Below, one piece after another: positions 36,675 through 60,847 of a stretch of DNA of 64,000 nucleotides (position 1 is the first letter of the stretch; each line of letters begins with the position of its first letter). This stretch comes from Gemmatimonadaceae bacterium (GTDB lineage: Bacteria; Gemmatimonadota; Gemmatimonadetes; Gemmatimonadales; Gemmatimonadaceae): positions 248,001 to 312,000 of the forward strand of contig DASXKV010000032.1 of NCBI GenBank assembly GCA_036496605.1. The letters are read 5' to 3'. The translations under genes and the position numbers were made by a program. Under the pieces are notes generated by a model. The model was not told the DNA's origin and did not search any database. It saw nothing but the letters and a program-made list of their open reading frames with translations.

Positions 36675-38915
36675 TCAGCGTTTCGTTTGCCCCGCTCCTT
36701 CACCTGCCTTCGGAAGCGTCAGCGCCACAAGGGCTGTCTTGTCGCCTGCCCCAGTCGCGAACACGATGTACTGCCTCCCCTGATGCATGAAGGTCATCGG
36801 GACCGCGGTCGTCTTCCCGGGAATCTGCACCTGTCCGACATCCTTGCCCGTCGCTTTGTCGACGGCGTAGAGATGATACGGCGGACGCGGGGGGCCGCCG
36901 CTGCGGCCGGTTCCGTAGATCACGAGCGTTTTCGTTGTGATGATCTGAGCTTGTCCGCGTCCCGGCTGGGACGGCAGCGTCACGCCTGCGAATAACGGAT
37001 CGTTCGAGGTCACCGGCGTCGTTACGCCGTTCGGAATCCACCAGATCTTATCGCCGGTGTTCATGTCGTACGCGGTGACGCCGCCGAATTGCTTTGGTTT
37101 GAGGATCGAGACGCCACCGATCGTCGAGCCGGCGGCGCGTGCCTCGAAGCCGAGTCCGCGCTGCGCACCCGCTTGCGCGACGTAGCCGGCGGGCGCTGGC
37201 AACGCGCCTAACAAGCCGCAGCTGTCGTGCGGTGAGCTGTAGCGAAATTCCGAACACGGATCCTTCTGGACCTGGATCGTGCTCAGGCCGCTCTGGCTGC
37301 CGACGTAGATGCGCCCCGTCTCCGGATCGGCCGCCGTTCCGCCGTCGATGTTCACGCCGCCCGACGCGCCCGGGGCGTACCATGCGCATTTGTATCTGCT
37401 CGGCCCTGAGCCGTCAGCCAGGGCGGCGGGAAGGAAGTACGGCCCCATGCGGCAGCGTTTAGCAAGCTTTAATGCCGAGTCCTTGATCGCCGGTGTGTAG
37501 TCGATGAGATCGGACTCGACCAGGCCCTGTTGCGAGTACGGCTCGGGTCGAGAGGGAATCGGCTGCGTCTTCGACGTTTGCTCGCCCGGGACCTCGCTCT
37601 GGGTCACCGGTGTCTCCACCATCGGCCAGATCGGCTCGCCCGTCACACGGTCGAGCGTGTAGACGAAACCCTGCTTCGTCGTCGCCGCGAGAACCTTCCG
37701 CGGACGGCCGTCGACGGTCACGTCGAGTAGGTTCGGCGCCATCGGGACGTCGTAGTCCCAGATATCGTGATGCACAAACTGATAATGCCAGCGGCGCTTC
37801 CCCGTCTTGACGTCGATCGCGACGACGCTCGAGCTGTAGAGATTGTTGCCCGGTCGATGGCCGCCATACTCGTCGATGAGCGGCATGCCGACGGGGATGT
37901 ACACGAGACCAAGGTCAGGATCGGCGGAGTATGTTGCCCAGGCGTCGTTCTTCCCCACTCCATCCGTGCCGATCTTCGAGCCACTCGTCCACGTCTCGGA
38001 GCCGAACTCGCCCGGCTGCGGAATGAGGTCGAACTTCCAGAGTTGCTTCCCGGTGTGGGCGTCGAATCCACGAATGAAGCCGGGGATATTGTGTTTGTGC
38101 AGCGGGAAGTAGCCGTGGATCGATGAATTGCCGACGACGATCACATCACCCACGACGATCGCCGGCGAGCTGTTCGCGATCTCACCGAGCGCCGGGTCGA
38201 TTCCCATCGTGCCGTCGGCGCCGATCTTCTTCACCGGATCCCACTTCTCGCCGGGACGTGCCTTACGAGCCGGCGCCGCTTCACTGATGATGAGCGGACC
38301 CGAATCGTCGACCGCGAGCGGCACGAGTGTGAATCCCAGTCCCTCCATGAGATCGACGACGCCGTTCTTGCCGAACTTGGAATCGGGGACGCCCGTCTTG
38401 GCGTCGATCGACGCAAGGTGATAACCCGGTGTGACGACGATGACGCGCTCATTCGTGCCGTCCGTCCAGTACGAGAGACCACGCCCGGAGTATTGCCGGG
38501 GCGCCTTCTGCCAGCGAATTCCCTCCTCGAGGCCCCACTTCCAGAGTGTCCGGCCCGTCGACGGATCGATCGCGAACGCGATGCGATGTGTCGTTGCGAC
38601 TGTGAACAGCCGGCCGTTCGCGTACAGCGGCGTCGAGCGATAGTACTCGTCGGTGCCGAGGGCGCTGGCGTTCCATTGCCAGGCCACCTGCAGTGAGCTG
38701 AAGTTCGACGCGTCGATCTGAGTGAGCGCCGAGTAGCGCGTACTCCACGCGTCGGCGCCCCAATAACGCCACTCGCCGGGCGCGTTCCCGCGCACGAGCT
38801 GCTTTCCCTGACTCGCGCTCGACAGCTCGGTGCGCAGCAACAAAACGCCCATGGCCGACGCGAGCACCACCAGCGACACCGCGACCCAACGCCACTTCGC
38901 AACATGATACCGCAT
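36675..38915 (-). CDS. PQQ-dependent quinoprotein dehydrogenase (glucose/membrane type)
   Basis: The 746-residue protein has an N-terminal hydrophobic leader or anchor (WVAVSLVVLASAMGVLLL). It continues as an eight-bladed PQQ propeller with tryptophan-docking repeats such as WRYWGADAWSTRYSALTQI, STGRTLWKWG, TGKQLWKFD, TGKRRWHYQFVHHDIWDYD and TGDKIWWIPNG. It oxidises an alcohol or sugar in the periplasm and passes electrons to quinone or cytochrome c. The next gene downstream on the chromosome (upstream in transcription) encodes a cytochrome c with a 47-base gap, suggesting an electron partner. No PQQ synthesis genes are visible. Confidence 0.9.
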   Translation of the reverse strand: MRYHVAKWRWVAVSLVVLASAMGVLLLRTELSSASQGKQLVRGNAPGEWRYWGADAWSTRYSALTQIDASNFSSLQVAWQWNASALGTDEYYRSTPLYANGRLFTVATTHRIAFAIDPSTGRTLWKWGLEEGIRWQKAPRQYSGRGLSYWTDGTNERVIVVTPGYHLASIDAKTGVPDSKFGKNGVVDLMEGLGFTLVPLAVDDSGPLIISEAAPARKARPGEKWDPVKKIGADGTMGIDPALGEIANSSPAIVVGDVIVVGNSSIHGYFPLHKHNIPGFIRGFDAHTGKQLWKFDLIPQPGEFGSETWTSGSKIGTDGVGKNDAWATYSADPDLGLVYIPVGMPLIDEYGGHRPGNNLYSSSVVAIDVKTGKRRWHYQFVHHDIWDYDVPMAPNLLDVTVDGRPRKVLAATTKQGFVYTLDRVTGEPIWPMVETPVTQSEVPGEQTSKTQPIPSRPEPYSQQGLVESDLIDYTPAIKDSALKLAKRCRMGPYFLPAALADGSGPSRYKCAWYAPGASGGVNIDGGTAADPETGRIYVGSQSGLSTIQVQKDPCSEFRYSSPHDSCGLLGALPAPAGYVAQAGAQRGLGFEARAAGSTIGGVSILKPKQFGGVTAYDMNTGDKIWWIPNGVTTPVTSNDPLFAGVTLPSQPGRGQAQIITTKTLVIYGTGRSGGPPRPPYHLYAVDKATGKDVGQVQIPGKTTAVPMTFMHQGRQYIVFATGAGDKTALVALTLPKAGEGAGQTKR

Positions 38916-54108: not shown

Positions 54109-56019
54109 ATGGACCCGCCATTCGTCATGGACACGACCGCGCTCCCTGAGATCGCGACGACGAGTATTCGCCAGCTCGAGGCATCGTGGACCAGTCCACA
54201 CAACGCGCTGGCGTGGCTCGCGACGGTCGACCACAAAAAGCTCGGCATTCGCTACATCGTCACCGCCTTCGTCTTCTTTCTCCTCGGCGGCGTCGAAGCA
54301 GCGTTGATGCGCGCGCAGCTCGCGCGCCCTGAAGCGCGTCTCCTCTCACCGGAGCTGTACAACCAGCTGTTCACGATGCACGGCACCACGATGATGTTCC
54401 TCTTCATTCAGCCGGTGCTATCGGGATTCAGCTTCTATCTCACGCCGCTCATGATCGGCGCGCGAGAGCTCGCCTTCCCACGGCTGAACACGTTCAGTTA
54501 TTACGCATTTCTGCTTGCGGGCGTGTTTATGTACGCGAGCTTCGCCATTGGCCACGCGCCCGATGGCGGATGGTTCGCGTACACGCCGCTCACCGGACCG
54601 CGCTTCGATCCCGGAATCAACATGGAGTTCTACGTCCTCGGACTCCTCTTCCTCGGCATCTCGACGACGGCGGGCGCGATCAACTCCATCGTCACGATTC
54701 TCAAACTGCGAGCACCCGGCATGTCGATCGATCGCATGCCGCTGTTCTTGTGGAGCTCGCTCACGATGTCGATCTCCGTCGTGCTCGCAATGCCGGCACT
54801 TACCGTCGCTCTCGGCTTTCTCGAGCTGGAGCGACGCTGGCATTTCGTTTTTTTCAATCCGGCGCTCGGCGGCACGCCGTTGCTCTGGCAACACCTGTTC
54901 TGGGTGTTCGGACACCCGTGGGTGTACATCATTTTCCTTCCCGCCACGGGCATGCTCTCGATGATCATTCCCGTCTTCTGCCGGCGTCCGATCATTGGCC
55001 ACACGTTTCTCGCCGTCTCCACGGTGGTGACGGGGCTCATTGGCTTCGGCGTCTGGGTGCATCACATGTTCGCGACGGGCCTCCCGCAGCTGTCGATGAG
55101 CTTTTTCGGCGCTGCGAGTATGACCATCTCGATTCCAAGCGCGGTCACCATCTTCGCCTGGATTGCGACGATGTGGCACGGACGTGTCGTACTCGCCACG
55201 CCGATGCTGTTCGCTCTCGCCTTCATTCTGCAATTCACGATCGGCGGTATCACGGGCGTCATGGGCGCCGCGGTGCCGTTCGACTGGCAGATCCACGATA
55301 CGTATTTCGTGGTGGGACATATCCATTACGTGATTGCGGGAAGCTCCGTCTTCGCGGTGTTCGCGGCCCTGTACTACTGGTTCCCGAAGATGACGGGGCG
55401 GTTGCTGAGCGAGAGCATCGGCAAGGCGAGCTTCTGGGTGATGACGATCGGCTTCAACCTCGCGTTCTTTCCGATGCACATTGCTGGGCTGCTCGGCATG
55501 CCGCGCCGTGTGTACACATTCCAGCCAGGCCTCGGACTCGAGAGCTCGAATCTCGTCTCCACGTTAGGCGCGTATCTCTTCGCGATCGGCGTCGCGATCA
55601 CGATCTGGAACGTCGCGCAGAGCCGCTTCGCCGGTGTGCTGGCCGGTCCCGACCCGTGGGGCGCGAGCTCGCTCGAGTGGCTCGCAAGCTCACCGCCGCG
55701 AGAGTACAACTTCGAGCATATCCCGCTCGTGACGAGCCGGGATCCACTCTGGGACGGCGGGCTGCGCTTCGGCCCTGCCTACGACGAGGGGCGGCTCACG
55801 CCGCGCACCTCGGCGCTGGATGCCCAGCTCGAAGCGGTCATCGAACTGCCGGAAGACAATGGCTGGACCGTGCTCATCGCTGTTACGCTGCTCGTCGCCT
55901 TTGTCGGATTGCTCGTTAGGCTCGACTGGTTGACGGCTCTCGGCGGTGTGGCGACCCTGCTCTGTCTCGCGCGCTGGCTGTGGCCCGTTCACGACAAGAT
56001 GTTGGAGACCGAGGTATGA
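54109..56019 (+). CDS. Cytochrome c oxidase subunit I, alternative form
   Basis: The 636-residue protein (start ATG 54109; 54079 and 54127 are alternatives) has about 12-14 membrane segments. All metal ligands are seen: the haem a histidine in TMHGTTMMF, CuB ligands and the tyrosine in FGHPWVYI, the HH pair in VWVHHMFATG, and VVGHIHYV. The glutamate of HPEVYI is replaced by tryptophan (HPWVYI). The lysine expected in the PTGIKIF-type motif is a threonine (IPSAVTIF). These are the classical D- and K-channel residues. It is the first gene of a tightly overlapping operon. Function: O2 reduction; pumping is in doubt. Confidence 0.93.
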   Translation: MDPPFVMDTTALPEIATTSIRQLEASWTSPHNALAWLATVDHKKLGIRYIVTAFVFFLLGGVEAALMRAQLARPEARLLSPELYNQLFTMHGTTMMFLFIQPVLSGFSFYLTPLMIGARELAFPRLNTFSYYAFLLAGVFMYASFAIGHAPDGGWFAYTPLTGPRFDPGINMEFYVLGLLFLGISTTAGAINSIVTILKLRAPGMSIDRMPLFLWSSLTMSISVVLAMPALTVALGFLELERRWHFVFFNPALGGTPLLWQHLFWVFGHPWVYIIFLPATGMLSMIIPVFCRRPIIGHTFLAVSTVVTGLIGFGVWVHHMFATGLPQLSMSFFGAASMTISIPSAVTIFAWIATMWHGRVVLATPMLFALAFILQFTIGGITGVMGAAVPFDWQIHDTYFVVGHIHYVIAGSSVFAVFAALYYWFPKMTGRLLSESIGKASFWVMTIGFNLAFFPMHIAGLLGMPRRVYTFQPGLGLESSNLVSTLGAYLFAIGVAITIWNVAQSRFAGVLAGPDPWGASSLEWLASSPPREYNFEHIPLVTSRDPLWDGGLRFGPAYDEGRLTPRTSALDAQLEAVIELPEDNGWTVLIAVTLLVAFVGLLVRLDWLTALGGVATLLCLARWLWPVHDKMLETEV

Positions 56020-56642
56020 CGGCGCGGGCCTTTCCTACTCCGCTCCCCGACGACCGACGTCTCCCACCTGCTACTCGCTCCAGCGAAGAGGTCGGGTGGT
56101 GGGGCATGGTGCTCTTCTGCCTCACCGAGGCCATGCTCTTCGCCTATCTGCTCGCAAGCTATCTCTATGTCGCCGTCGCCAACCGAGAATGGCCGCCGCC
56201 TGGTTTCGAGCTCCCGAAACTCCAACTGCCGCTGATCATGACCGCGCTGCTCCTCTCGAGCAGCGGGGCGGCCATCTGGGCGGAGAAGGGCATCGAGCGA
56301 GACGAACGAGGCCGCTTTCGCATCGGATTGCTCGTCGCGTTCGGGCTTGGCGCCGCGTTCCTCGTTCTCCAGATGCGCGAGTACGCCGAGAAGCTGCAGC
56401 ACATGGGACCACGCGAGCACGCGTACGTCTCGCTCTTCTTCACGATCACAGGCTTTCACGGTGTGCATGTGGCGTTCGGGCTCGTGCTGATGCTCTACCT
56501 CGGGCTTCGCTCACTGCTCGGACACTTCGATGCCCACCGGCACCTCGCCGTCAAGAACGTGTTCCTGTACTGGCATACCGTCGACGGCGTCTGGCTCGCG
56601 ATATTGACCGCGATCTATCTCTCGCCCCAGTTCTATCGATGA
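56016..56642 (+). CDS. Haem-copper oxidase subunit III
   Basis: The 208-residue protein starts at ATG 56016, overlapping the subunit I stop by ATGA. It has five hydrophobic segments with COX3 signatures: EVGWWGMVLFCLTEAMLFAY, FTITGFHGVHVAFGLVLML and the closing VFLYWHTVDGVWLAILTAIY. It lacks the two extra N-terminal helices of long COX3 proteins, as is usual for short bacterial forms. It stabilises subunit I. The next gene overlaps it by four bases. Confidence 0.92.
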   Translation: MTARAFPTPLPDDRRLPPATRSSEEVGWWGMVLFCLTEAMLFAYLLASYLYVAVANREWPPPGFELPKLQLPLIMTALLLSSSGAAIWAEKGIERDERGRFRIGLLVAFGLGAAFLVLQMREYAEKLQHMGPREHAYVSLFFTITGFHGVHVAFGLVLMLYLGLRSLLGHFDAHRHLAVKNVFLYWHTVDGVWLAILTAIYLSPQFYR

Positions 56643-57055
56643 TCGACGCCGGCACCGAGCGAATTCCCGTGAGTCAGCGGCGACTGTGGTTTGGCGTTTT
56701 GATCGCGCCGGCCGCCTGGATCATCGCGCTCATTGTCGGCTATCTCCTCGTGTCGCGTGGCTGTGACATCGCACCGAACGGCCTGCGTGGGCGGCCGGTC
56801 GCCAGCCCGGGCGTCGTGCAGGTCGTGTTCGGCGTGGCTTTCACCGTGCTCGCGTTAGGCTCCCTCTGGGCGGCGCGCGGGTCGTACCGCGCGATTGTCG
56901 CCTCGCGTCCACCAGGCCAGAGCACGCGCGTGGAGTGGGACCGCGCTCGATTCATGGCGCTCGTCGGAATTCTCGTCGCCTCGATCTTCGCATTCGGCAT
57001 CGCACTGATCGCGATTGCGCCATTGATGTTGAACGCATGCATGCAAGCGCACTGA
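56639..57055 (+). CDS. Membrane protein of oxidase operon
   Basis: A 138-residue protein, ATG 56639, overlapping the subunit III stop (ATGA). It has three membrane segments: WFGVLIAPAAWIIALIVGYL (near 18-37), GVVQVVFGVAFTVLALGSL and FMALVGILVASIFAFGIALI. A cysteine follows helix 1 (SRGCD). I recognise no family; its place between subunit III and CtaG suggests an assembly or small oxidase subunit. The next gene begins inside its last codons. Confidence 0.75.
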   Translation: MIDAGTERIPVSQRRLWFGVLIAPAAWIIALIVGYLLVSRGCDIAPNGLRGRPVASPGVVQVVFGVAFTVLALGSLWAARGSYRAIVASRPPGQSTRVEWDRARFMALVGILVASIFAFGIALIAIAPLMLNACMQAH

Positions 57056-57900
57056 GTCCCGCCGATGTGTGGACGTCGTGGGGTGGCGAACCCGGCGTCA
57101 TCGTGGCGATTGCCGTTGCGGCCGCCGCGTACGCGTCGGGCGTACGCGCCTTGTGGCGACGAGCCGGTGTCGGCCGCGGCGTTCCGCGTTGGCGAGTCAC
57201 CGCGTTCTCGGCTGGCCTTGCGACCATTGCCATCGCATTGCTGTCACCGCTCGACGCTCTGGGAGAGACGCTCTTCTCGGCGCACATGGTTCAGCATCTC
57301 CTCCTCATGATGCTTGCGCCGCCACTCCTCGTGCTCGGCATGCCGCATGTGGCGGCGGCGTGGCTGTTGCCGCCACGGCGCCTAACGTGGCTGCGGCAGC
57401 GGCACGCCACACGGGGGCTTCTCGCCGTCTGGCATGGAGCGACAACGTGGCCCTTCGCCCTCGGCAGCAGTACGGCCGCGCTCTGGCTCTGGCACGCGCC
57501 ACGATTGTACACGCTGGCGCTCGAGCGGCCCTGGGTTCATGCGCTCGAGCACCTGAGCTTCATCGCGACGGCGATCCTGCTCTGGTGGCGCATTCTTCTG
57601 CCGCGACACGAACGGCGATCGGCCTATGCGATCGGCGTGCTTCTCCTTCTCGCGACCTCGATGGAGAGCGGCGCGTTAGGCGCCGTACTCGCGTTCGCGC
57701 GCGAGCCATGGTTCCCAATACAGGCCGCGGGAGCGCGTGCGTGGGGGATCACGCCGCTCGAGGACCAGCAGCTCGCAGGGCTCATCATGTGGGTTCCGGG
57801 TGGACTCTTCTACATCGCCGCTGCGGGAGCGCTCTTCGCGACCTGGCTCGCCAATCACCGTGCACCGTCCAACGTCGCGGTCTCCGGGGGCATCCCATGA
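57037..57900 (+). CDS. ctaG: caa3-type oxidase assembly factor CtaG
   Basis: The 287-residue protein starts at ATG 57037, overlapping the previous gene by 19 bases. Seven or so membrane segments carry the caa3_CtaG histidines: SAHMVQHLLLMMLAPPLLVL, LWHAPRLYTLALERPWVHAL and EHLSFIATAILLWWRIL. CtaG of this kind helps copper insertion during assembly of caa3-type oxidases. Its presence in the operon links the operon to terminal oxidase biogenesis. The stop overlaps the cytochrome gene (ATGA). Confidence 0.88.
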   Translation: MHASALSPADVWTSWGGEPGVIVAIAVAAAAYASGVRALWRRAGVGRGVPRWRVTAFSAGLATIAIALLSPLDALGETLFSAHMVQHLLLMMLAPPLLVLGMPHVAAAWLLPPRRLTWLRQRHATRGLLAVWHGATTWPFALGSSTAALWLWHAPRLYTLALERPWVHALEHLSFIATAILLWWRILLPRHERRSAYAIGVLLLLATSMESGALGAVLAFAREPWFPIQAAGARAWGITPLEDQQLAGLIMWVPGGLFYIAAAGALFATWLANHRAPSNVAVSGGIP

Positions 57901-58274
57901 TCCGGTCGCGGTCGTTAGGCAGCTGGCGTGTGCTCATCGTCATCGCTGTCGTCGCGTGCGCCCGGCGCGTCTCCAACAGCGCGGTGCCGGGAGGCGACGT
58001 CTCGCGCGGCGCGACGGCGCTCGCGGCTTTCTCGTGCGGCGCGTGTCATCAGATCGACGGCATCGCTGGCGCAGCGGGACTGGTTGGCCCGCCGCTCAAT
58101 GGCATTGCCGATCGCACGATGATCGCGGGCGAGCTGCCCAACACGCCGGACAACATGAAACGGTGGATCATTGATCCGCAATCCGTGGAGCCGAATACCG
58201 CGATGCCGAATCTCCACGTCTCCCCGATTGTCGCGCGCGACATGGTCGCCTACCTCTACACGTTACGGAACTGA
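57897..58274 (+). CDS. Membrane-attached cytochrome c of oxidase operon
   Basis: The 125-residue protein begins at ATG 57897, sharing ATGA with ctaG. It has a hydrophobic leader with a lipobox-like end (VLIVIAVVAC) and one haem site CGACH near residue 47. A methionine ligand candidate is in NTAMPNLHVS. It is short and class I-like. It probably carries electrons into the subunit II haem next door. The stop shares a base with the ATG of the next gene. Confidence 0.88.
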   Translation: MIRSRSLGSWRVLIVIAVVACARRVSNSAVPGGDVSRGATALAAFSCGACHQIDGIAGAAGLVGPPLNGIADRTMIAGELPNTPDNMKRWIIDPQSVEPNTAMPNLHVSPIVARDMVAYLYTLRN

Positions 58275-59293
58275 TGGGGTGCCGCGTTCAGTACGCCGCG
58301 ATCCGTATGGCGCTCCCCGCGACCGTCGTGGCGCTGGCCGCGTGCGATACGCCGATGAACGCGCTCGACGCAAGCGGCGATCCGGCACGACGCATCGCGA
58401 CGCTCGGCTGGTTCATGATCGTGCTGTCCGCGATCATCTTCATCGGGGTCGTGATCGTGCTTGCCTGGGCCGTGTCGCGCAATCGGCGCACCACGGACCT
58501 CAGTCCGGACCTCACGCCACGAGGACGCGGCTGGATCGTGTATGGCGGGGCGCTCATGCCCACGCTCGTACTCGTCGCGATCTTCGTCGTCGCGATGAGC
58601 ACTCTTGGAATGTTCCCCGTGCGCGGCGCCCCACCGGTGCTGACCATTCACGTTACCGGCCGCCAGTGGTGGTGGCAGATCGACTATCTCGGACCGAAGC
58701 TGCAGACGTACTTGACGACTGCGAACGAGATCCACATCCCCGTCGGTCAGCCGGTGCGAGTGCTTCTGACCTCCGCGGACGTCATCCACAGCTTCTGGGT
58801 GCCGAAGCTGCAAGGCAAGCTCGATCTCATCCCGGGTGACACGAACGACATTCGCCTTCGCGCCGAGCGTCCCGGCGAATATCGCGGGCAGTGCGCCGAG
58901 TATTGCGGGCTCCAACACGCGCACATGGCCTTCACCGTCGTCGCCGACGACTCGGCCACGTTCGCCCGGTGGTGGCGCGCGCAGCTCGAACCGGCCACTC
59001 CACCCGCGGATTCACTGACGCAGCTCGGACAGCGGGTCTTTGTGAATGGCCCATGCGTCGTTTGTCACACCGTGCGTGGCACTCCGGCACGGGGCCAGAT
59101 TGCGCCGGATCTCACCCACGTCGGCAGCCGCAGAACGATCGCCGCGGGCGTACTGCCGAACTCGTTAGGCGCGCTCGAAGGATGGATCGCGAATGCGCAG
59201 TCGCTCAAGCCCGGCACGCAGATGCCGAACATCACCCAATTCAACGGCCGCGAGCTCCGCGCTCTCGCGGCCTACGTGTATAGCCTGAAGTAG
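58274..59293 (+). CDS. Cytochrome c oxidase subunit II with C-terminal cytochrome c
   Basis: The 339-residue protein starts at ATG 58274 (TGATG overlap). A leader or lipobox (VALAAC) and two membrane helices (LGWFMIVLSAIIFIGVVIVL, PTLVLVAIFVVAMSTLGMF) precede the CuA domain. That domain has the WWWQIDY patch, HSFWVPKLQGK and the CuA site CAEYCGLQHAHM. A cytochrome c domain follows with CVVCH near residue 260 and NMPNITQF-like methionine. This CuA plus haem c fusion is the caa3 layout. It is the last gene of the operon. Confidence 0.93.
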   Translation: MGCRVQYAAIRMALPATVVALAACDTPMNALDASGDPARRIATLGWFMIVLSAIIFIGVVIVLAWAVSRNRRTTDLSPDLTPRGRGWIVYGGALMPTLVLVAIFVVAMSTLGMFPVRGAPPVLTIHVTGRQWWWQIDYLGPKLQTYLTTANEIHIPVGQPVRVLLTSADVIHSFWVPKLQGKLDLIPGDTNDIRLRAERPGEYRGQCAEYCGLQHAHMAFTVVADDSATFARWWRAQLEPATPPADSLTQLGQRVFVNGPCVVCHTVRGTPARGQIAPDLTHVGSRRTIAAGVLPNSLGALEGWIANAQSLKPGTQMPNITQFNGRELRALAAYVYSLK

Positions 59294-59365: not shown

Positions 59366-60847
59366 GTGGCTGCGCATCTAGTTGGGCTCGTAGCACATTA
59401 CGGCTATGCATTGATCGCCCTTTTCCTGTTCGGTGAAGGGCTGGCTATTCCGTTCCCGACCGATACGACGGTCGTCACCGCCTCGGCGCTCGCGGCGCGC
59501 GGCCATCTTTCGCTCGCGCTCGTCTTTCTCGTCTCGACGCTCTCGACCACGGCGGGGACGACCGCGGCATTCTACCTCGGCCGCACCGGCTCGAGCTTCA
59601 TCTCGCGTCATGCCCACAGGGGCGGCAATGCCCTGGCCCACGCGCATCGCTTTTTCGAGCGGCATGGTACGAGCGCGGTGCTCTTCGGCCGCTTTGTGCC
59701 AGTTGTGCGTATGCTCATTTCGGTCGTCGCCGGCGTGTCGCAAATGGACGCCCGCCGCTTCACCTTGTACAATCTCGCCGGCGCCGCGATCTGGGCCTGC
59801 GCCTTCTGCGCCATCGGCTATTTCTTCGGTCATCACGCATCACCGTTCTATCATCAGATCGTACGCGCCTCTCTTGTCGCGGGCTTCGGACTCGCGGCGC
59901 TCGTCACACTCGCCGTCGCCGGCGGTTGGCTGATCGAGGACGTCGACGCCACCTGGCGCGCCGAGGGCACGTTGTGGCACCGGGTCTTGATGTCGCGGCC
60001 CGTGCGTTGGCTCGCCGATCGATCACCGCGTGCGCAGTCCATTCTCTTCCGTCGATTCTCACCGGCCCACTATCTCGGTCTCAACCTCACGCTTGGACTC
60101 GGCGTCAGCTTCGTCTTGCTGTTGGTCTTTGCCGCGATTGCGCAGAGCGTGTTGTCGAAGACTGCGATCGTCCGCTTCGATCTCGATCTCGCCGAAGTGT
60201 TGCACTCCGGTGCGACGCCTCACGGCATTGCCTTCTCGGTTGCGGTGACGCGGCTCGGAACCATGTCGACGACCGCGGTCTTCGGACTGCCCCTCGCGAT
60301 CTGGTATTCGTCGCGCCGCGGTTGGCTGCCCCTCGCCGGCTGGCTCGCCGCACTCTCCGGCGCGGAAGTGCTCGCGTGGGCACTCAAGCATGCGATCCAT
60401 CGCGACCGGCCGATCTTCGAGATCGCCTACGCCTCCGAGCCGTCGTTCAGTTTTCCCAGCAGCCATGTGCTCGGCGCGTTGGTGGGTTATGGCATGATTG
60501 CGTATTTCGTGATCTGCCTAACAGGTTCCCGATTCTGGCGCACCTCGACCATCCTCATCGGCGCAATGCTCGTCGCGGCCGTCGGGTACAGCCGGCTGTA
60601 CCTCGGCCTTCATTTCTTCAGCGACGTCGTCGGTGGACTCGCCGCCGGCGCCGTCTGGCTGACCACCTGCATCACGGCGCTCGAAGTCGCACGGCGCAAG
60701 CAGGAAACGGAGTCTCTCGGCCCGATCGCTCGGCATATTCATCGCGATGAATCGCCATCGAGCAGTCTGGTCAGGATACGCGCCGAGCCGACGCCGCAAC
60801 CCGAAGCGCCCTCCTCCCGTAAGCGAGGTACTCGACCAGGAGATTGA
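59366..60847 (+). CDS. DedA/SNARE-associated and PAP2 phosphatase fusion protein
   Basis: The 493-residue protein (GTG 59366) joins two membrane modules. Residues 1-190 are DedA-like (GEGLAIPFPTDTTVVTASAL, FGRFVPVVRMLISVVAGVSQ). Residues about 230-450 are a PAP2-type phosphatase: KHAIHRDRP (K-x6-RP), SFPSSHVLGA (PSSH) and SRLYLGLHFFSD (SR-x5-H). DedA proteins move lipids between leaflets. PAP2 phosphatases remove phosphates from lipid intermediates such as undecaprenyl diphosphate. The fusion suggests lipid-carrier recycling. The kinase gene begins two bases after its stop. Confidence 0.9.
   Translation: MAAHLVGLVAHYGYALIALFLFGEGLAIPFPTDTTVVTASALAARGHLSLALVFLVSTLSTTAGTTAAFYLGRTGSSFISRHAHRGGNALAHAHRFFERHGTSAVLFGRFVPVVRMLISVVAGVSQMDARRFTLYNLAGAAIWACAFCAIGYFFGHHASPFYHQIVRASLVAGFGLAALVTLAVAGGWLIEDVDATWRAEGTLWHRVLMSRPVRWLADRSPRAQSILFRRFSPAHYLGLNLTLGLGVSFVLLLVFAAIAQSVLSKTAIVRFDLDLAEVLHSGATPHGIAFSVAVTRLGTMSTTAVFGLPLAIWYSSRRGWLPLAGWLAALSGAEVLAWALKHAIHRDRPIFEIAYASEPSFSFPSSHVLGALVGYGMIAYFVICLTGSRFWRTSTILIGAMLVAAVGYSRLYLGLHFFSDVVGGLAAGAVWLTTCITALEVARRKQETESLGPIARHIHRDESPSSSLVRIRAEPTPQPEAPSSRKRGTRPGD

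Follow-up and report, generated by a model that had tools for sequence, protein, structure and literature searches.

Tryptophan at the end of a retained lower D channel in a K-channel-less A-family oxidase operon of a Gemmatimonadaceae bacterium

How does an A-family haem-copper oxidase obtain its protons when both the glutamate that ends the D channel and the lysine of the K channel are missing? The question is raised by a cytochrome c oxidase operon at positions 54109-59293 of a 64,000-nucleotide stretch from the genome of a soil bacterium of the Gemmatimonadaceae, here called the window (contig C32, DASXKV010000032.1, 248001-312000, assembly GCA_036496605.1; genome 5.97 Mb; relatives in the Gemmatimonadota). 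An earlier note, made from the sequence alone, had read HPWVYI for HPEVYI and IPSAVTIF for a PTGIKIF-type motif in subunit I. The reading proposed here, to which we give a probability of roughly 0.5, is that the enzyme is a functional caa3-type A-family oxidase without a K channel, which takes its protons through a truncated D channel and pumps probably weakly or not at all.

Sites were numbered by alignment to solved A-family enzymes, which read GHPEVYI and PTGV/IK at the two positions; Rhodobacter sphaeroides (Rs) numbering is used, with that of Paracoccus denitrificans (Pd) where given. Around the two sites the sequence of subunit I is ...WQHLFWVFGHPWVYIIFLPATGMLS... and ...SIPSAVTIFAWIATMW..., and the features concerned are the following:

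54109..56019, + strand: subunit I (haem a, haem a3-CuB), A-family; COX1 PF00115 503 bits, TIGR02891 686.8 bits
54466..54468, + strand: Glu120, at the site of the D-channel entry Asp (D132 Rs), by alignment
54682..54684, + strand: Asn192, at the D-channel N207 site, by alignment; with Asn127 (N139 site) in the retained lower D channel
54919..54921, + strand: codon TGG for Trp271, at the site of the D-channel terminal Glu (E286 Rs, E278 Pd), by alignments; Trp in 38 rows
55147..55149, + strand: Thr347, at the site of the K-channel Lys (K362 Rs, K354 Pd), by alignments

Both replacements are borne out, as Trp (residue 271) is aligned with E286 and Thr (residue 347) with K362. The protein itself has the features of the A family (CtaD/CoxA). 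Its TIGR02891 score lies above the NCBI cut-off (686.8 against 670.75 bits), which makes it a cytochrome c oxidase subunit I, and its AlphaFold2 (AF2) model, with a predicted local distance difference test (pLDDT) score of 90.7, matches R. sphaeroides 2gsm with Z 50.6 and a root mean square deviation of 1.3 Å over 499 residues. The six histidines, the HPxVY tyrosine and the CuA site of subunit II are in place. Indeed, the haem and CuB ligands and the cross-linked tyrosine, which the note had already seen, are H91, H269, Y273, H318, H319, H404 and H406, and they are invariant in all 38 Trp-type sequences; the sites of D407, D412, R481 and R482, near the haem propionates, are likewise conserved in 38/38. 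Because the ligands are conserved, knowledge of the family makes it highly probable that electrons enter via cytochrome c, haem c and CuA and that O2 is reduced at haem a3-CuB.

Sequencing error, a frame artefact or a pseudogene was considered as the source of the Trp codon and rejected on three grounds. First, Trp occupies the E286 site in 38 subunits I (a few of them from the same assembly met twice) obtained by scanning a genome collection and searching 395 genomes of this phylum, and 37 of the 38 are from outside the window operon. One further subunit I has Phe there, and two have Asp. The Trp-type sequences come from Gemmatimonadota, Acidobacteriota, Pseudomonadota and one metagenome-assembled genome (MAG) of Actinomycetota, and four further Trp-type loci were read from plasmids of Mesorhizobium, Burkholderia, Methylocella and Paraburkholderia. 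Second, a DNA pattern for HPWVY matched in 26 of the 395 Gemmatimonadota genomes and in 15 of 138 genera, while the reversed-pattern control gave 0 matches; these counts are lower bounds, since the pattern requires the exact flanking motif and missed the Trp-bearing L157. Third, the ratio of nonsynonymous to synonymous substitution rates in close pairs (0.10-0.25) indicates purifying selection. The Trp trait is an old one and has been maintained.

In the tree, 32 of the 33 Trp/Phe rows fall into one clade with a Shimodaira-Hasegawa-like approximate likelihood ratio of 99 (98-99 over trees). The exception is the Actinomycetota MAG (L016), placed near the Trp clade but outside it; a single clade is not rejected (approximately unbiased test, p 0.20), and L016 may have acquired its Trp independently. 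Other natural variants at this site are Phe in L103 (also L145), inside the Trp clade, and Asp in L112 and L115, which belong to the Glu-type relatives.

What, then, is left of the D channel? The earlier note was right that the terminal Glu is absent, but the channel itself is not gone: the lower half persists and stops at the Trp, and no other acid stands in for the Glu. Site 132 is Asp in 30 and Glu in 8 of the Trp-type rows, N139 and N207 are Asn in 38/38, and N121 is kept in 29; above them come S200 (34/38), T201 (37/38) and T202 (36/38). The lower D channel of the A1 type (acid at 132, N139, N207) is represented in the window by E120, N127 and N192. Apart from metal ligands, residues at helix ends and E63 (close to the outer end of helix I, 36/38), the predicted helices of the 38 Trp-type sequences contain no conserved charged residue; no substitute carboxylate or lysine turned up in them. 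The YS motif of A2-type oxidases does not occur in the Trp-type rows either, in which FG or FA precedes the His (F267-G268 in the window). Substitute acids or lysines in the channels, as in A2, had been named beforehand as the outcome that would overturn the observation; they were looked for and not found.

Most of the relatives bearing Glu286 present the opposite picture. Their lower channel is lost (Asn at 132, Glu at 207, Val or Ile at 121), and they carry extra glutamates in helices II and IV. The Trp-type and Glu286-type groups have eroded the same D channel from opposite ends. The D-channel entry of these sisters (L085, L055, L004 and others) is mostly Asn or another non-acid, and their extra glutamates stand at window-equivalent positions 105, 183 and 192; from the sequences this looks like a relocated D pathway.

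The K channel has a different history. At the K362 site the Trp-type rows have Ala (18), Thr (6), Gln (6), Ser (4) or Gly (4), and never Lys; in the comparison set of 75, two of whose members are canonical paralogues keeping Lys, 71 sequences have Gln. The Glu at the K-channel entry in subunit II is absent from both the Trp-type and the Glu-type groups and present in the canonical paralogue L001 (LEITW, against IVYGGALMP in the window). The A1-type K-channel residues are accordingly missing from the window enzyme, which has T347 at the K362 site, S344 at the T359 site and no entry Glu. Since Lys and the entry Glu are gone in both groups, the loss of the K channel is common to the whole superclade formed with the E286-keeping relatives, and only the Trp is particular to the Trp branch. 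Of the two losses that the note pointed out in this oxidase, Glu to Trp is special to it and that of the Lys is not. Variation of the K channel within the A family is already on record (PMC8239418). A B-type-like K channel was also considered, with Thr/Ser at two B-type positions, and rejected: the K362 site is free to vary within the clade (Ala, Thr, Gln, Ser or Gly), a pattern of conservation that lends no support to a working analogue of the K channel.

We infer activity, proton path and pumping from the observed residues, clade, intact catalytic ligands and gene context. Electrons from a periplasmic cytochrome c would pass by way of subunit II, with its haem c and CuA, to haem a and on to haem a3-CuB, where O2 would be reduced. 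Cytoplasmic protons would climb the D channel by the acid at 132, N139, N207 and S200-T201-T202, and over the last stretch they would pass the Trp on water or hydroxyls. With no K channel existing and the lower D channel conserved, this single channel would serve all the chemical protons, and that they all pass Trp271 in this manner has, in our estimate, about an even chance of being right. In canonical enzymes Glu286 is the branch point between pumped and chemical protons. Because this branch point is gone, pumping would by analogy probably be slight or nil, so that some one charge per electron would be left, a proposal that we would neither favour nor disfavour strongly. The statement of the note that the route and the pumping of protons must differ is best kept as plausible. 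The wider claim, that this is an A-family lineage which reduces O2 without a K channel or a D-end carboxylate, passes all its protons by a conserved Trp and possibly pumps none, is tentative, and we place it somewhat below even odds.

Two points weigh against the proposed truncated D channel. The subgroup of the window departs further from the canonical channel, with Phe at N121 and Glu at D132. In addition, E286Q blocks the oxidative steps and K362M the O-to-E reductive step of canonical enzymes (reviewed in PMC12901375), and by this standard an enzyme lacking both residues would be predicted to be inactive.

Of the competing explanations, the one that survives best is that pumping is still close to 1 H+/e-, with hydroxyls and ordered water near Trp271 standing in for the Glu in an A2-like way. 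Tyrosine replaces the Glu in A2 enzymes, which shows that not every A-family member has a carboxylate at 286 (PMC3084760), and the conserved Ser/Thr at sites 200-202 and the invariant charged sites near the haem propionates are as such a pump would have them. We consider it rather unlikely, as the YS motif is absent and no new conserved acid was found. Compensation by the hydroxyls at 201/202 was rejected, since T201 and T202 are already present in the Glu-bearing sisters and did not arise with the loss.

A second possibility is that the chemical protons come from the periplasmic side and turnover is non-electrogenic, as proposed for the cytochrome c nitric oxide (NO) reductase. Both canonical inward channels are incomplete, E63 lies near the outer end of helix I in 36/38, and alcohol oxidation by the neighbouring dehydrogenases described below would presumably release protons there. 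An idle lower D channel would, however, be conserved for no obvious reason (N139 and N207 in 38/38), and E63 is non-specific, being found in the canonical paralogue L001 as well; the explanation is distinctly unlikely.

It is more improbable still that the product is no respiratory oxidase at all, having decayed or been repurposed, for example, as an NO reductase. A canonical enzyme deprived of both residues would be inactive, the window operon is without the dehydrogenase genes of its relatives, and two genus mates searched are without the oxidase. On the other side stand the intact ligands, tyrosine and CuA site, the purifying selection, the spread of the trait across several phyla and the maintained assembly factor and cytochromes; the HPxVY Tyr and CuA argue against an NO reductase in particular. 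That a bovine-type H pathway carries the protons is highly improbable, for the 2026 paper that argues for its structural conservation in all families also says that the H- and D-pathway mechanisms are still debated (PMC12901375).

Compared with the known oxidase types, the window enzyme with its proposed truncated D channel shares with A1 aa3/caa3 enzymes (R. sphaeroides, P. denitrificans) the fold, the metal ligands, the cross-linking Tyr, a CuA-bearing subunit II and the lower D-channel residues, and differs from them in lacking E286, K362 and the K-entry Glu of subunit II. Like A2 caa3 (Rhodothermus, Thermus) it has no Glu at 286 and has haem c fused to subunit II; membership of this type was rejected for want of the YS motif, and it also lacks the Lys of the K channel. 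It is not of B type (ba3), with T347 and S344 at two positions but Ser284 instead of Tyr at the third, a lower D channel, and scores of about 46 bits with ba3 and 481 bits with the best A-family chain; nor of C type (cbb3), since the HPWVY Tyr and CuA are present. Its sister group is formed by E286-retaining K-less enzymes such as Mesorhizobium L085, L004 of the same genome and Rhizobium etli p42b L178. They have the same operon genes and frequent pyrroloquinoline quinone (PQQ)-dependent alcohol dehydrogenase neighbours, mostly Gln at K362 and no subunit II entry Glu, and they differ in keeping E286, in having mostly lost the canonical lower D channel and in the extra helix II/IV glutamates. 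CoxMNOP has two subunit III genes against the single COX3 gene here, a comparison by gene content. The related p42b operon of R. etli appears distinct from coxMNOP (old locus tags matched by inference), and the name CoxN-like was dropped for the sister group.

The operon consists of six tightly packed genes, all on the + strand, and beyond subunit I it contains:

56016..56642, + strand: subunit III; COX3 PF00510 99.6 bits
56639..57055, + strand: small three-helix membrane protein, no Pfam family; alignment, AF2 model
57037..57900, + strand: Caa3_CtaG assembly factor; PF09678 198 bits
57897..58274, + strand: single-haem cytochrome c (CGACH); PF00034 33.7 bits
58274..59293, + strand: subunit II, CuA domain and C-terminal haem c (CVVCH); COX2 77 bits, Cytochrom_C 39.9 bits

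The order I-III-unknown-CtaG-cytochrome c-II given in the note agrees with these coordinates and family matches. Overlaps of four to nineteen bases were reported there; the successive values are 4, 4, 19, 4 and 1 bases, so that the range fits the first four junctions and not the last. CtaG is probably the assembly factor for CuB and the cytochrome c the probable electron donor; the best solved match to subunit II is the Thermus caa3 subunit II (2yev_B, 164 bits). The genome holds four full subunit I genes, and a short partial COX1-like match (C27:27742-28146, L005) scores 31.5 bits, below the cut-off. The next gene downstream of the operon, 59366-60847, encodes a VTT domain fused to a PAP2 phosphatase domain.

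The product of 56639-57055 keeps its position between COX3 and CtaG throughout the superclade and has two invariant cysteines (C42, C134). Its AF2 model consists of three helices (pLDDT 87). A Pfam profile search matched no family, and a PDB fold search gave only chance-level matches, none with E < 0.5. The two cysteines are expected on the same membrane face and possibly form a disulfide or a copper-binding pair.

In the superclade the genes usually run II-I-III-unknown-CtaG-cytochrome c, and in the window and its nearest relatives subunit II follows the cytochrome. This is a local displacement of subunit II. One close relative (L006:7042-12227) has two subunit II genes, the first 5' of subunit I and the second behind cytochrome c. 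This arrangement may preserve a trace of how subunit II reached the last place in the window operon. In L007, L008, L014 and L129 a PQQ-dependent alcohol dehydrogenase (TIGR03075, 620+ bits) and a MoxJ-like gene (TIGR03871) lie between cytochrome c and subunit II. The block is absent from L006, L131, L132 and the window operon, which by this comparison has lost it. HbpS-like protein genes (PF03928) adjoin two dehydrogenase-oxidase clusters (L007:12081-12872, L014:15451-16293).

Within the family, counting one locus per genome, the dehydrogenase adjoins 20/30 Trp-type loci and 0/18 canonical oxidase loci (Fisher p 2e-6); in a wider count it is nearby in 24/35 Trp-clade and 31/56 Glu-type loci. 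The window genome has two PQQ-dependent alcohol dehydrogenases elsewhere, one of them beside the Glu-type paralogue L004. About 15 kb upstream of the operon, 36675-38915 (- strand) encodes a 746-aa protein with a partial, below-cut-off PQQ dehydrogenase match (TIGR03075, 110 bits). Since genes of the superclade often adjoin such dehydrogenases, the ancestral job of its oxidase was probably the draining of electrons from periplasmic alcohol oxidation. In Rhizobium and Bradyrhizobium (L120, L182) the neighbour of the Glu-type operon is an FdhF/YdeP family oxidoreductase and not a PQQ dehydrogenase, and Glu-type oxidases may for this reason be paired with different dehydrogenases.

The operon order had been called distinctive in the note. 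The odd and local placement of subunit II can be kept from this claim; the gene set itself is already reported. According to the passages found in PMC10875860, the XoxF3 cox clusters of Acidobacteria and Gemmatimonadetes combine CoxI, II, III, CtaG, cytochrome c and an unknown protein of 110-130 aa between CoxIII and CtaG with a PQQ dehydrogenase, and the operon is therefore not new. Near relatives of the window operon have the PQQ dehydrogenase and a XoxJ/MoxJ-like gene as well, a likeness by gene set. The window operon differs in having no dehydrogenase, MoxJ or cytochrome cL (XoxG) gene and in having subunit II last. Those same passages hold no discussion of proton channels, and open-licence PMC text gave no published description of the Trp variant or the string HPWVY. 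As far as these sources go, the operon gene set (XoxF3-type) is known, and the replacement of Glu by Trp in a lineage that has no K channel and keeps its lower D channel is new. It is to this replacement that the interpretation of the note, in part correct, is best confined.

The case for or against a need of both a D-end carboxylate and a K channel in the A family has been made mostly with mutants, and many of these are inactive. As such mutations stop the oxidative or reductive steps of canonical enzymes, a maintained lineage without both residues is of interest: being under selection and present in cultivable bacteria, it offers a test in an enzyme that ought to work. If the truncated D channel capped by Trp is real, it would be a third ending of this channel besides Glu (A1) and Tyr-Ser (A2). 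If the enzyme does not pump, soil-bacterial respiration on periplasmic alcohol oxidation would conserve less energy than the annotation 'cytochrome c oxidase subunit I' implies.

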